A DNA stretch of 64,000 nucleotides, taken from Haloterrigena gelatinilytica (GTDB lineage Archaea > Halobacteriota > Halobacteria > Halobacteriales > Natrialbaceae). Every line of letters begins with the position of its first letter. Within the stretch, counting starts at the first letter, position 1. The position numbers and the translations under genes were made by a program. Below are positions 4,003 to 13,805 of the stretch, in pieces. Location: positions 2,976,001 through 3,040,000 of the forward strand of contig NZ_JABUQZ010000001.1 of assembly GCF_013342145.1 (NCBI RefSeq), read 5' to 3'. Under the pieces are notes generated by a model that saw nothing but the letters and a program-made list of their open reading frames with translations, was not told where the DNA came from and did no database searches.

Positions 4003-4058
4003 TTTAAGTGCTTCTGGTCACAAGGTGAAGATACGACGGGAGATCGGTCTTCTCGAGT
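4003..4058 (+). repeat. Promoter-like repeat R1 (type A)
   Basis: First of seven copies. It has a TATA-like TTTAAGT, then GGTCACAAGGTGAAG, then ATACGACGGGAG and TCTTCTCGAGT. GAAGA and TCTTC can pair around the expected transcription start. The next 110 nt contain a strong inverted repeat (4072-4082 with 4154-4164), and no ORF follows. The layout resembles the tandem TATA modules upstream of haloarchaeal rRNA operons (resemblance from memory, not aligned). Confidence 0.7.
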
Positions 4059-4173
4059 CCTCAACAATGTCGTAGCGACGGGTACGTGGTCGGATCTGTC
4101 GTATTCGCCTCCACAGCACAGTCTTCGAGGCGATCAGTCGACGCTCTTCCCGCCCCGTCGCTACGCGATTCTC

Positions 4174-4229
4174 TTTAAGTGCTTCTAGTCATAAGGTGAA
4201 GATACGACGGGAGGCCGGTCTTCTCGAGT
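4174..4229 (+). repeat. Promoter-like repeat R2 (type A)
   Basis: Same order of blocks as R1, with CTAGTCATAAGGTGAAG in place of CTGGTCACAAGGTGAAG. It starts 171 bp after R1. A perfect hairpin, GAGCGGCG/CGCCGCTC at about 4260-4280, lies between R2 and R3 and could end a short transcript. Confidence 0.7.
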
Positions 4230-4284
4230 CGTCTACTTCGATAGCGATAGCACTCGCTCGAGCGGCGGTGATCGCCGCTCGTTC

Positions 4285-4332
4285 TTTAAGTGTCTCTGGT
4301 CACAAGGTGAAGCTACGAAGAGCTTTTCGCGG
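4285..4332 (+). promoter_or_regulatory. Promoter-like repeat R3 (type B) before the nucleotidyltransferase gene
   Basis: TTTAAGT plus the GGTCACAAGGTGAAG core as in R1, but then the type B tail GCTACGAAGAGCTTTTCGCGG. AAGCT and AGCTT form a start-proximal hairpin followed by a T run. It lies 80 bp before the ATG at 4365 and is the likely proximal promoter of that gene, with a structured leader of about 50 nt. Confidence 0.65.
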
Positions 4333-4364
4333 ACCGCTACCACTCGAGGGACGGAGCCACAGCC

Positions 4365-5324
4365 ATGTCTACCGTCCCCGAGCCCGTTTTCGAGACCGTC
4401 GACGACCTGCTGACCGACCTCGAGCGCGACCGCGGGGTTCGCGTCGCGCTGGCGGTCGCCCGCGGCAGTCACGCCTGGGGCGCGGCGAGCCCCGAGAGCG
4501 ACTACGACGTCGGCTTCGTCTTCGTTCCGGACGATCTGCGCCAGTACGCCCACCTCTCGGGCCCGCCGGAGACGATCCACGAGGCCGCCGACACGGACGA
4601 GGGCGACGTCGAACTGCAGGGCTGGGACGTCCGAACGTTCGCGCGCCTGCTCGCGGACTCCAACGACGGCGCGATCGATCTGCTCCGGAGTCCGATCCGC
4701 TACCGCGTCGCGTACGAACCCGCGGAACTCGCCGCCTACGTCGAGCGGACGTACAATCCGATGGATCTCTACCACGCGTGGCGGGGGATCGCGACGAGCA
4801 ACTACCGCAAGTACATCTCGCACCATCTGGTCCGCAACGACGACGCGATCTTCCCGATTCTCGAGGCGCGCGAGGACGAATACGTCGTCGCGACGCGGGA
4901 CGGTGCGGACGACGCGGACGGCGACGACGGAACGCGGACGATTCCGGTCGACGACGAGCGGTTCGCCGAGACGCAGACGAAACCCACGGTGAAGCGAAAT
5001 CTGACGATCTACCGCGCGGCGATGTCGGCTCGCTACCTGACGGCGACCGGAGAAGGGGACGGCCACGAGCTACCCGTAATCGAGTTCGACCGCTTCCTGG
5101 ACGAGCAGGCGCCGTCCGTCTTCGACGCCGATCGGATCGAACGCGCCCGCGCGTTGCTCGAGCGAAAGCGGGCCGGCGACGGTTCGGAGACGATCGGCGA
5201 CGCCGTCGGCCGCGAGTTCGCCCGTCCGCCCCGCGAGATCGATCCCGGGCGTCACGCGCGCAGCGGTCCCGATCCGGAGCGGTTGGACGGGTTCGTCGAC
5301 GAACTGATCGCGGCAGTGCAGTAG
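4365..5324 (+). CDS. Predicted nucleotidyltransferase (polymerase-beta superfamily, COG3541-like)
   Basis: A 319-residue protein with the minimal nucleotidyltransferase signature: GSHAWG (Gly34-Ser35) and SDYDVGF (Asp46, Asp48), the metal-binding DxD of the polymerase-beta superfamily. A helical C-terminal part contains DLYHAWRGIATSNYRKY. This resembles the YcgL/COG3541 family of stand-alone predicted nucleotidyltransferases, some of which sit near RNA repair or RtcB-type genes; no such neighbour occurs here. It lies between two repeat arrays and is preceded by type B repeat R3. The substrate is unknown. Confidence 0.8.
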   Translation: MSTVPEPVFETVDDLLTDLERDRGVRVALAVARGSHAWGAASPESDYDVGFVFVPDDLRQYAHLSGPPETIHEAADTDEGDVELQGWDVRTFARLLADSNDGAIDLLRSPIRYRVAYEPAELAAYVERTYNPMDLYHAWRGIATSNYRKYISHHLVRNDDAIFPILEAREDEYVVATRDGADDADGDDGTRTIPVDDERFAETQTKPTVKRNLTIYRAAMSARYLTATGEGDGHELPVIEFDRFLDEQAPSVFDADRIERARALLERKRAGDGSETIGDAVGREFARPPREIDPGRHARSGPDPERLDGFVDELIAAVQ

Positions 5325-5352
5325 GACGGGGCGGTGATCGGCACGCTCGTTC

Positions 5353-5408
5353 TTTAAGTGCTTCTGGTCACAAGGTGAAGATACGACGGGAGACCGGTCT
5401 TCTCGAGT
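5353..5408 (+). repeat. Promoter-like repeat R4 (type A, single)
   Basis: An almost exact match to R1 over the whole module. It starts 28 bp after the nucleotidyltransferase stop. The sequence just before it (GGTGATCG then GCTCGTTCTTTAAG) resembles that before R3. About 200 bp of non-coding sequence and then the 35-codon zinc-finger ORF at 5615 follow. Confidence 0.7.
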
Positions 5409-5614
5409 GGTGCTCTACCGGCCAGCTACTGCTGTCGAGCGCAGCGACGCCGTCGTTTCCATCCGCGACAGCCGTTCCGCAGGTATTGGGCCGTCCCCAG
5501 GCTCCCGACGGCACCTTCGTTCCGAATCGAATACCGTTGCATCGGGTAGACCGCGGCTGTTGCTACTCCCGCGGTCACAACAGGGTTTACTACGGTAAGC
5601 GTCTGAACTCGCCA

Positions 5615-5722
5615 ATGACCTGTGACGTGTGTGGCCGGGAGATAGAGGGGGTTAGATTGTACAAAGCGAGCAGGGGAAGCAAGGGAAACCTCGGCGTCTT
5701 TCACCCGGAGTGTCGTCCGTAG
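5615..5722 (+). CDS. Small CxxC zinc-finger protein, 35 residues
   Basis: ATG at 5615 encodes MTCDVCGREIEGVRLYKASR, continuing to a HPEC end. CxxC near the N-terminus and HxxC near the C-terminus make a plausible single zinc site (Cys3, Cys6, His30, Cys33). Haloarchaea encode many one-domain zinc-finger microproteins of this size, but this one is not assigned to a named family. Composition is basic for the organism. Repeat R4 lies upstream. Coding status is supported by motif spacing, not by length. Confidence 0.5.
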   Translation: MTCDVCGREIEGVRLYKASRGSKGNLGVFHPECRP

Positions 5723-5814
5723 GATCCGTCTGCCCGTCGATTCGCTCGTTGCTGCTGTCGTATTACGAGTCCCCCGTTCGTCTCGAACGACCGGGAAGGC
5801 GAACTCCGATCTGA

Positions 5815-5871
5815 TTTAAGTACTTCTGGTCACGAGGTGAAGACACGACGGAGAGGCGGTCCTTCTCGAGT
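5815..5871 (+). repeat. Promoter-like repeat R5 (type A, diverged)
   Basis: TTTAAGTACTTCTGGTCACG, then AGGTGAAGACACGACGG and CTTCTCGAGT. It is the first of the second three-unit array. The following 55 nt show no ORF. Confidence 0.65.
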
Positions 5872-5927
5872 TGTCCTCGACCGAGGAGTCACCACTATCT
5901 CCGACTGAACTCGCCCCGGTTAGTCGC

Positions 5928-5983
5928 TTTCAGTTCCTCTAGTCACAAGTAGAGATACGACGGGAGACCGGGTCTTCTCGAGT
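5928..5983 (+). repeat. Promoter-like repeat R6 (type A, weakest TATA)
   Basis: The core is kept, but TTTAAGT is changed to TTTCAGT and one base is lost near ACAAGTAGAGATACGACGGG. It starts 113 bp after R5. A perfect hairpin GAGTGGC/GCCACTC (about 5995-6011) and a GACGCT/AGCGTC palindrome follow before R7. Confidence 0.6.
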
Positions 5984-6046
5984 CCCAATTCGCGAGTGGC
6001 GAGGCCACTCTTCGAGCGGTGACTGGGATCGACGCTCCAGCGTCTC

Positions 6047-6094
6047 TTTAAGTACCTCTGGTTACAAGGTGAAGCTACGAGGAGCTTTTCGCGG
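6047..6094 (+). promoter_or_regulatory. Promoter-like repeat R7 (type B) before the RNA polymerase epsilon-like gene
   Basis: TTTAAGTACCTCTGGTTACA, then AGGTGAAGCTACGAGGAGC and TTTTCGCGGC. This type B tail is shared only with R3, so both arrays end A-A-B. It lies about 190 bp upstream of the ATG at 6240 and would give a leader of about 165 nt. Confidence 0.65.
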
Positions 6095-6239
6095 CGTCGA
6101 AATCCGTCCCCAGCCTCGAGAGCGGTCGCGCCGTCGGGTGATCGACCGTCGAGTTCGTATCACCGAGGGTTTCAGTTCCATCGAGCGACGGTTTCACTAG
6201 GAGGTGCCTTTTTCCGTCTGCCGGTCCGAGCAAGCGGTA

Positions 6240-7019
6240 ATGAGAGACGACGGTGCTGAACCCGGTCCAGGCCCCGACGAAACCGCGGCCGTCGGCGACA
6301 GCCCGCAACTCGAGTACGAGGACGAACGCCGACTCGAAAACCGGCCCGGTTCCGGGTCGCTCTCGCGGGCGGACGTCCAGCGCGATTCGACGGTCCGCCA
6401 GTGGGGGGTCGTCACGCCGAGCGCGACCGTGATCGGCCGCGCGGAGTCGCCGGAGGGGGACCTCTCGGAGAGCGTCCGCCGACTGCACGACGAACAGCAC
6501 GCGGCAACGCCGGGCTACAGCGAGCGCGCCCACCGGTTAGACCGCCTGCGGACGACCCAGGCGCTGTGTAACGCCCTCGAGGTGACGCCGTGGCAACGGG
6601 ACCTCGCGCTGGGGGTCATGGACGAGATCGATCTCACCGAGTTCGGCAGCCAGCGCGCGATCGAGAAGGTCGCGCTGGTGGTCATCCGCCACGTGGTCGA
6701 CGTCGACCGCCAGCAGTACTTCGGGCTCGACGACATCGACGCGCAGGCGCTGTCGGCCGACCGGATGGACGACCTGTTCGCCCAGTACCGCGCCCACGAC
6801 ATCACCGAAGAGGAGACGTTCAAGCGTCTCGCGGCCGACTACGGGCTGGACACGACCAGCCTGAACCGGCTCCGACGGGTCCTCAAAGAGCAACTCGAGG
6901 ACGAGCTGCCGGCGTACGGCCGGAACCCCTACCGCGACCCCAACCTCCCGGACGTCACCGAGGCCAACGCCGGGAGCGAGGAAGGCGTCGCCGCCGGCGA
7001 CGGCGCGAACGGCGCCTGA
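6240..7019 (+). CDS. rpoeps: Haloarchaeal RNA polymerase subunit epsilon-like protein
   Basis: A 259-residue protein with an acidic, disordered N-terminal 55 residues, then VRQWGVVTPSATVIGRAES and a helical body (LRTTQALCNALEVTPWQRDL, FGSQRAIEKVALVVIRHVVD). The C-terminal part contains YGRNPYRDPNLPDV. This pattern matches my recollection of the haloarchaea-specific protein annotated as RNA polymerase subunit epsilon, a cyclin-like helical protein whose role in transcription is not well defined. ATG 6240 is preferred over GTG 6204 because the upstream extension adds an atypical Cys-containing peptide. It is the only gene downstream of the second A-A-B repeat array. Confidence 0.6.
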   Translation: MRDDGAEPGPGPDETAAVGDSPQLEYEDERRLENRPGSGSLSRADVQRDSTVRQWGVVTPSATVIGRAESPEGDLSESVRRLHDEQHAATPGYSERAHRLDRLRTTQALCNALEVTPWQRDLALGVMDEIDLTEFGSQRAIEKVALVVIRHVVDVDRQQYFGLDDIDAQALSADRMDDLFAQYRAHDITEEETFKRLAADYGLDTTSLNRLRRVLKEQLEDELPAYGRNPYRDPNLPDVTEANAGSEEGVAAGDGANGA

Positions 7020-12845: not shown

Positions 12846-13805
12846 ATGGCTCGCCCATCCCGCCAGCGCGAACGCGAATCAGCATCGACCGAAACCACAG
12901 ACCAACGCGAGCGCGAGCGGGCGTGTGACGAGTGTTCCGACGGAACGCTCGTCACCAGCGAAGATCAGGGCGAACTCGTCTGTGACCAGTGCGGGCTCGT
13001 CGTCGAGGGCTCGAACATCGACCACGGCCCGGAATGGCGCGCGTTCAACCACTCCGAGCGACAGAGCAAGTCCCGCGTCGGCGCGCCGACGACCCAGACG
13101 ATGCACGACAAGGGGCTGACGACCTCCATCGACTGGAAGAACCAGGACGCCTACGGCCGCTCGATCTCCGCGGACAAGCGCAGTCAGATGCGCCGCCTGC
13201 GCAAGTGGCAGGAACGCATCCGCACCAAGGACGCCGGCGAACGCAACCTGCAGTTCGCCCTCAGCGAGATCGATCGGATGGCCTCCTCGCTGGGCATTCC
13301 GCGGTCGGTCCGCGAGGTCGCCTGCGTCATCTACCGGCGCGCGTTAGACGAGGACCTCATCCGCGGGCGCTCCATCGAGGGCGTCGCCACCAGCACCCTC
13401 TACGCCGCCTGCCGCATGGAGGGCATCCCCCGCAGCTTAGAGGAGGTCGCCGCCGTCTCCCGCGTCGAACGCAAGGAGATCGGCCGCACCTACCGCTACG
13501 TCGCCCAGGAGCTCAGCCTCGAGATGGAGCCCGTCGACCCGAAACAGTACACGCCGCGCTTTTGCTCGGAGCTCGACCTCTCGGAGGAGGTCCAGGCCAA
13601 GGCCACCGAGATCATCGACACGACGACCGAGAAGGGGCTGCTGTCGGGCAAGTCGCCCACGGGCTACGCCGCCGCCGCGATCTACGCCGCCTCGCTGCTC
13701 TGTAACGAGAAGAAGACCCAGCGCGAGATCGCCGAGGTCGCGCAGGTGACCGAGGTGACCATTCGAAACCGGTATCAGGAGCAGATCGAAGCGATGGGCA
13801 TCTAG
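12846..13805 (+). CDS. tfb: Transcription initiation factor IIB (TFB)
   Basis: A 319-residue archaeal TFB. The zinc ribbon has Cys27, Cys30, Cys46 and Cys49, the B-finger/linker is [13 protein letters not shown], and two cyclin repeats follow ([32 protein letters not shown]) with [16 protein letters not shown] in the second. It bridges TBP-TATA and RNA polymerase. Haloarchaea carry many TFBs, and which paralogue this is cannot be told here. Confidence 0.94.

Follow-up and report, generated by a model that had tools for sequence, protein, structure and literature searches.

The window, a 64-kb stretch of the Haloterrigena gelatinilytica genome, contains seven copies of a promoter-like element of 40–55 base pairs, the neighbors of which are folE2, a gene encoding an RlaP-family nucleotidyltransferase, a 35-residue open reading frame, and rpoeps, encoding RNA polymerase subunit epsilon. 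The copies, called modules here, are all on the forward strand and have the positions and the A-A-B, A, A-A-B grouping by tail type that were given in the initial annotation. The box TTTAAGT, previously claimed for every module, starts at 4003, 4174, 4285, 5353, 5815, 5928, and 6047; however, the degenerate copy at 5928 reads TTTCAGT, has a short deletion in the core and five mismatches, and is recovered with one mismatch by a shorter pattern. The six other modules score 55–72 bits against a 39-position matrix built from relatives. The maximum in shuffled sequence is 4 bits, and the rest of the 64-kb window has no other site above 5 bits.

4003..4057, forward: module 1, type A, 72.0 bits; TATA-like box at 4003–4009, spacer core to 4030, predicted +1 near 4035
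4074..4079, forward: third conserved box of module 1, AGCGAC, identified by enrichment, spacing, and conservation
4174..4228, forward: module 2, type A, 65.3 bits
4285..4335, forward: module 3, type B, 63.9 bits; 48 nucleotides from the putative +1 to the nucleotidyltransferase ATG
4365..5324, forward: RlaP-family nucleotidyltransferase gene (PF10127, E-value 1.2e-28)
5353..5407, forward: module 4, single, type A, 72.0 bits
5815..5870, forward: module 5, type A, 54.9 bits
5928..5983, forward: module 6, tail of type A; the TATA-like box is degenerate, and the core has a short deletion
6047..6097, forward: module 7, type B, 57.9 bits; the final copy ahead of rpoeps
Near 4243, 4355, 5424, 5887, and 6121, forward: equivalents of the third box in other modules, read from the sequence
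6240..7019, forward: rpoeps, subunit epsilon, characterized by annotated orthologs, co-occurrence, co-location, and fold prediction

The genes following modules 3 and 7 had been called a nucleotidyltransferase and RNA polymerase epsilon-like, respectively. Both calls hold: the former belongs to the RlaP family, and the latter has RefSeq orthologs that carry the name RNA polymerase subunit epsilon. The 35-residue open reading frame (5615–5722, forward strand) contains a CxxC...HxxxC motif, has similar sequences in 16 fetched loci, and is possibly a zinc-binding micro-protein.

The genome contains exactly twelve modules, seven in the window and five in a second array at C1:3240158–3240662 on the reverse strand, which is followed by a GNAT gene and thiE/thiM. 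A whole-genome search with the reversed module pattern yields zero matches, and the twelve copies are far beyond chance. The second array, outside the window, corresponds to L012:7159–7663 among the fetched loci; three congeners have an additional module approximately 2 kb upstream of it, preceding a PAP2 phosphatase gene. The spacing of 111–171 base pairs reported for the window is narrower within arrays, mostly 105–150 base pairs in all fetched loci and 118–121 base pairs in the second array. A CRISPR array is ruled out by the divergence of the units (60–90% identity) and by their spacing of 105–150 base pairs or more.

Conserved boxes and tail types of the module

The consensus of the module is TTTAAGT-NN-YTCTGGTCACAAGGTRRAG-[AC]TAYGACGGGA, followed by a variable stretch and TTCTC, with positions numbered from the first T of TTTAAGT. 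The TTTAAGT box is nearly invariant, with C preferred at positions −8 and 0, and the spacer, which occurs in variants such as GGTCACAAGG and GGCGACAAGG, is almost as conserved as the box. The TATA-like box at positions 1–7 and the conserved TAYGA at positions 30–34 match the geometry of archaeal promoters, in which +1 would be located near the G of TAYGA. This geometry, together with conservation beside orthologous genes, supports the designation of the element as promoter-like.

The background is flat upstream of position −10. Among close relatives, identity is 83–97% at positions 1–55, except for 78% at positions 6–10; it drops to the background of about 75% past position 55 and rises again at positions 71–75. 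A third box, AG[CT]N[AG]C (AGYNRC), is several-fold enriched at positions 62–77 over the flanking background and is mostly positioned 22–25 nucleotides past TTCT. De novo motif searches of the regions −60 to −1 and +90 to +160 yielded nothing beyond composition-like motifs and the following module, and a scan for T-run terminators found no consistent site other than the TTCT region and the TATA box that follows. A small peptide starting from GTG in the core was rejected, because many copies have GTA at this codon and the reading frame is not maintained.

The two tail types are real. Type B (CTACGAAGGGCTTTTCG), a near-palindrome at the DNA level, is present in 16 of 17 rpoeps-proximal copies and 10 of 81 array-internal copies from loci of Natrialbaceae, the family of H. 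gelatinilytica. However, type B is not restricted to places next to a gene. The related locus L061 has six type B copies in succession, and type A copies can precede other genes.

The start-proximal hairpin proposed for each module did not withstand tests of stability, consensus folding, and covariation. The stability of hairpins in 110 units shows no excess over dinucleotide shuffles (mean z of +0.2), RNAalifold finds no consensus structure for the modules, and pairing frequencies reveal no coherent covarying stem. An Rfam scan of the window identifies tRNAs only, leaving the module without a curated family. The equivalent of the tail in Halobacterium-type genomes is GAAGNNCTTC, with a gap of two nucleotides, which is too short for a loop; therefore, a DNA palindrome is possible there, but an RNA hairpin is not.

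Linkage of modules to rpoeps

Modules and rpoeps are linked both in cis and by their distribution among genomes. Haloarchaea of at least seven families have relatives of the module. A strict search identified modules in 33 of 61 relatives, mostly Natrialbaceae, and class-wide in 106 of 391 genomes, with zero matches to the reversed pattern in both sets; the named strict matches are nearly all from Natrialbaceae, plus Halorhabdus and Haladaptatus. Modules are conserved beside orthologous genes, and their distribution tracks that of one gene, rpoeps. Because many of the modules first found outside Natrialbaceae adjoined rpoeps, the co-occurrence of the two was tested. The rpoeps gene is present in 160 of 391 genomes (E-value ≤ 1e-20), including all 106 of the 106 genomes with strict modules, and none of the 231 rpoeps-negative genomes has a strict module. 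Most of the rpoeps-positive lineages that lack strict modules have variants near rpoeps, such as TTTAAGTNNYTCTGGCGACAAGGGATAGATACGAAGGACTTCTC in Halobacterium-type genomes. These variants mostly score 31–54 bits, compared with the shuffled maximum of 4 bits, and those in the f7 genomes are weaker at 9–26 bits. A looser pattern matches 20 of 22 and 15 of 21 strict-negative, rpoeps-positive genomes; overall, a match is present in at least 141 of the 149 rpoeps-positive genomes tested, compared with 1 of 59 rpoeps-negative genomes. The sole rpoeps-negative match (G107) is a module located 52 base pairs past a divergent epsilon homolog. Among 49 rpoeps loci selected solely for protein similarity, 46 contain a module no more than 1.5 kb upstream of the gene. 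Within genus g12, one genome (G231) has both rpoeps and modules, and three (G109, G138, and G375) have neither. A genus-level table for lineages outside Natrialbaceae gives p ~3e-7, a value from a hand tally of genera that are not fully independent. The near confinement of modules to rpoeps-bearing genomes, where they usually adjoin the gene, suggests a hint at the purpose of subunit epsilon.

Haladaptatus-type genomes and loci (L190, L193, G268, G273, and G339) carry several rpoeps copies per genome, and modules are located 20–40 base pairs from individual copies, some of them downstream of the stop codon. In a Halorussus halophilus plasmid (L198), rpoeps and modules travel together. The H. 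gelatinilytica genome also encodes a distant epsilon homolog outside the window (C1:2405693–2405977, reverse strand; 34% identity over 96 residues), and similar homologs are present in several rpoeps-negative genomes.

Stand-alone modules and gene neighbors

In heuristic gene calls for 538 modules from partly overlapping fetched loci, the next feature downstream is another module in 218 cases, a same-strand gene in 229, a convergent gene in 80, and nothing called in 11. Of seven modules inspected on annotated plasmids, five are directed at a convergent gene, and two are more than 400 nucleotides away from the next gene. Since some copies, notably those on plasmids, face convergent genes, the modules are stand-alone units, and their dispersal on plasmids of rpoeps-positive species implies action in trans. 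Plasmid modules from Haloterrigena, Halopiger, Natronococcus, and Halomontanus (L200–L206) often have the variant tail ATATAGCAGGGGAGTCGTTCT and sit in long stretches with few genes; more than 150 base pairs past the module are common to two Haloterrigena plasmids. Neither a strict-pattern search of IMG/VR nor a query of phage records with a 49-nucleotide variant produced a match, and thus there is no sign of viral origin.

The RlaP gene is often flanked by modules in Natrialbaceae. Besides rpoeps and RlaP, recurrent same-strand neighbors encode GNAT, DsbA-type, and PAP2 proteins, together with genes that we take, from their N-termini, to be serS, PRPP synthetase, and hisG. Some of the module-linked genes carry a separate TATA-like box near the ATG; for example, TTTAAA is located about 30 nucleotides upstream of rpoeps in the Halobacterium-type genome G106. 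Thus, the modules are additional units rather than simply promoters for the genes that follow.

Predicted fold of subunit epsilon

The ordered core of epsilon (residues ~86–226) was modeled with a pLDDT of 87.8 and pTM of 0.82. All structural matches listed for the core are TFIIB-type or cyclin folds, among them archaeal TFB on BRE/TATA DNA and Brf2; their Z-scores of ~10–11 at 2.4–3.6 Å are in a range that helical domains may reach by chance. Foldseek E-values for the core are not significant, and hhalign of the epsilon profile against haloarchaeal TFBs gives a probability of 0.1%, showing no profile homology. The epsilon protein from the window has a single cysteine and thus lacks an N-terminal zinc ribbon, and a sequence search of the PDB returned only a weak match to ribonuclease HII (E-value 0.04). 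The resemblance of the core to TFIIB and cyclins is no more than suggestive. A gene for a TFB of the two-repeat TFIIB family, one of several TFB genes in the genome, is located at ~13242–13790 on the forward strand, ~6 kb downstream of rpoeps.

Subunit epsilon and its activity on native templates were reported in the 1980s. The epsilon-containing polymerase transcribes native templates efficiently; however, the relevance of the subunit has been described as enigmatic (PMC8305020). A cyclin- or TFIIB-like fold would fit this activity. Literature searches found no description of the module, nor of target sites or a promoter class for epsilon.

Possible functions of the modules

The modules are a conserved, multi-copy, promoter-like element with stand-alone copies. 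In the best explanation, which we regard as having a roughly even chance of being correct, they constitute a promoter class used by the epsilon-containing polymerase, which would control rpoeps and produce short untranslated RNAs. TBP and TFB would be positioned by the TATA-like box, at about −32 to −26, together with its C-rich flank. Epsilon, or the polymerase containing it, would recognize the conserved spacer (−24 to −1) and the beginning of the transcribed region, which comprises GACGGGA...TTCTC and, at about +40, AGYNRC. Through the arrays beside rpoeps, epsilon would regulate rpoeps itself as well as neighboring genes, and modules without a downstream gene would give rise to short untranslated RNAs or serve as docking sites for the epsilon form of the polymerase. 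In favor of this explanation are the promoter-like anatomy, the linkage to rpoeps, the dispersed plasmid copies, the predicted cyclin-like fold of the epsilon core, and the activity of the epsilon-containing polymerase on native templates. The separate TATA-like boxes of some linked genes count against it, as do three rpoeps-positive genera (g7, g69, and g74) in which no modules are detectable, the non-significant Foldseek E-values of the fold match, and the lack of profile homology to TFB. The modules could instead be regulatory sites recognized by a different factor whose gene is close to rpoeps.

The main rival, which is possible but clearly less probable, is that the modules are tandem small-RNA genes, units of ~110–120 base pairs each with a promoter, whose RNA (GACGGGA...TTCTC...AGYNRC) would be functional and perhaps bind epsilon or the polymerase like 6S RNA. 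The conserved sequence extends beyond +1 as far as about +23 and reappears near +40, unit spacing is clustered at 105–150 base pairs, and the stand-alone copies without a downstream gene, including the plasmid copies that mostly face convergent genes, would be expected of such genes; by contrast, the sequence after +23 is mostly unconserved, no stable, consensus, or covarying structure or Rfam match was found, and the Halobacterium tail palindrome is too tight for an RNA hairpin. The two explanations overlap, because stand-alone epsilon promoters would also make short RNAs. It is unlikely that the modules are operators through which a sequence-specific regulator, either epsilon as a repressor or another factor, autoregulates rpoeps and a small regulon without a special promoter mechanism. 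Near-palindromic tails, linkage to rpoeps, and the assorted neighbors are consistent with operators, but the TATA-like box belongs to the unit at a nearly fixed distance from the predicted start, and many modules have no gene to regulate. The multiple copies, variable copy number, and plasmid occurrence would also suit a dispersed, MITE-like mobile repeat with no function at its site; however, modules occupy the same places beside orthologous genes across families, and their conservation is confined to separate boxes with background in between, which makes this origin very improbable. The likeness to rRNA promoters suggested in the initial annotation has been largely refuted. TATA-containing tandem units ahead of a polymerase gene, and an rRNA operon about 1.7 kb to the left of the window, speak for rRNA-type tandem promoters with growth-rate control, but none of the three rRNA operons of the genome is preceded by a similar sequence; the regions ahead of their 16S genes score at most −7.8 bits compared with 55–72 bits for modules. 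Furthermore, modules track rpoeps, yet rRNA operons exist in every genome. Growth-rate control is thus left without specific support, and an rRNA-type function is scarcely credible.

Comparison with known systems

The rpoeps gene following module 7 is the RefSeq-named ortholog of that encoding Halobacterium salinarum epsilon (rpoeps, OE_1279R), which has been linked to the transcription of native templates (PMC8305020); the papers searched describe neither target sites nor a promoter class for it. Haloarchaeal rRNA promoter arrays share tandem promoter-like units with the modules but, as represented by the three rRNA operons of the same genome, have no sequence likeness to them. In bacteria, 6S RNA binds RNA polymerase. 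If the modules were small-RNA genes, their product would likewise be functionally tied to the polymerase; unlike 6S RNA, the modules have no conserved hairpin that could be found and no Rfam match. The modules have in common with canonical haloarchaeal TBP/TFB promoters a TATA-like box, and their putative start is likewise ~25–32 nucleotides downstream. By contrast, they have a fixed TTTAAGT, a strongly conserved spacer between the TATA-like box and the putative start, and a conserved region that would be transcribed, and are found almost only together with rpoeps.

Eukaryotes divide labor between Pol II and Pol III. Unlike Brf2 of TFIIIB, epsilon has a single predicted cyclin-like domain and no homology was found; nevertheless, Brf2 and the type 3 promoters of Pol III, a TFIIB-like factor with a dedicated promoter class for short RNAs, provide a working analogy. 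Extending this analogy, it is conceivable, although doubtful, that haloarchaea have a second, epsilon-dependent initiation system beside the standard TBP/TFB machinery. Its separate promoter class would mainly serve rpoeps itself and short RNAs that are not translated, and factor and promoter could be mobilized by plasmids as a unit. If a role of the modules as targets of epsilon were confirmed, archaea would possess an initiation factor distinct from TFB and a promoter class dedicated to it. The modules make the role of the subunit testable in a standard laboratory archaeon and provide concrete candidate target sites of epsilon in many genomes, including those of the Halobacterium type.
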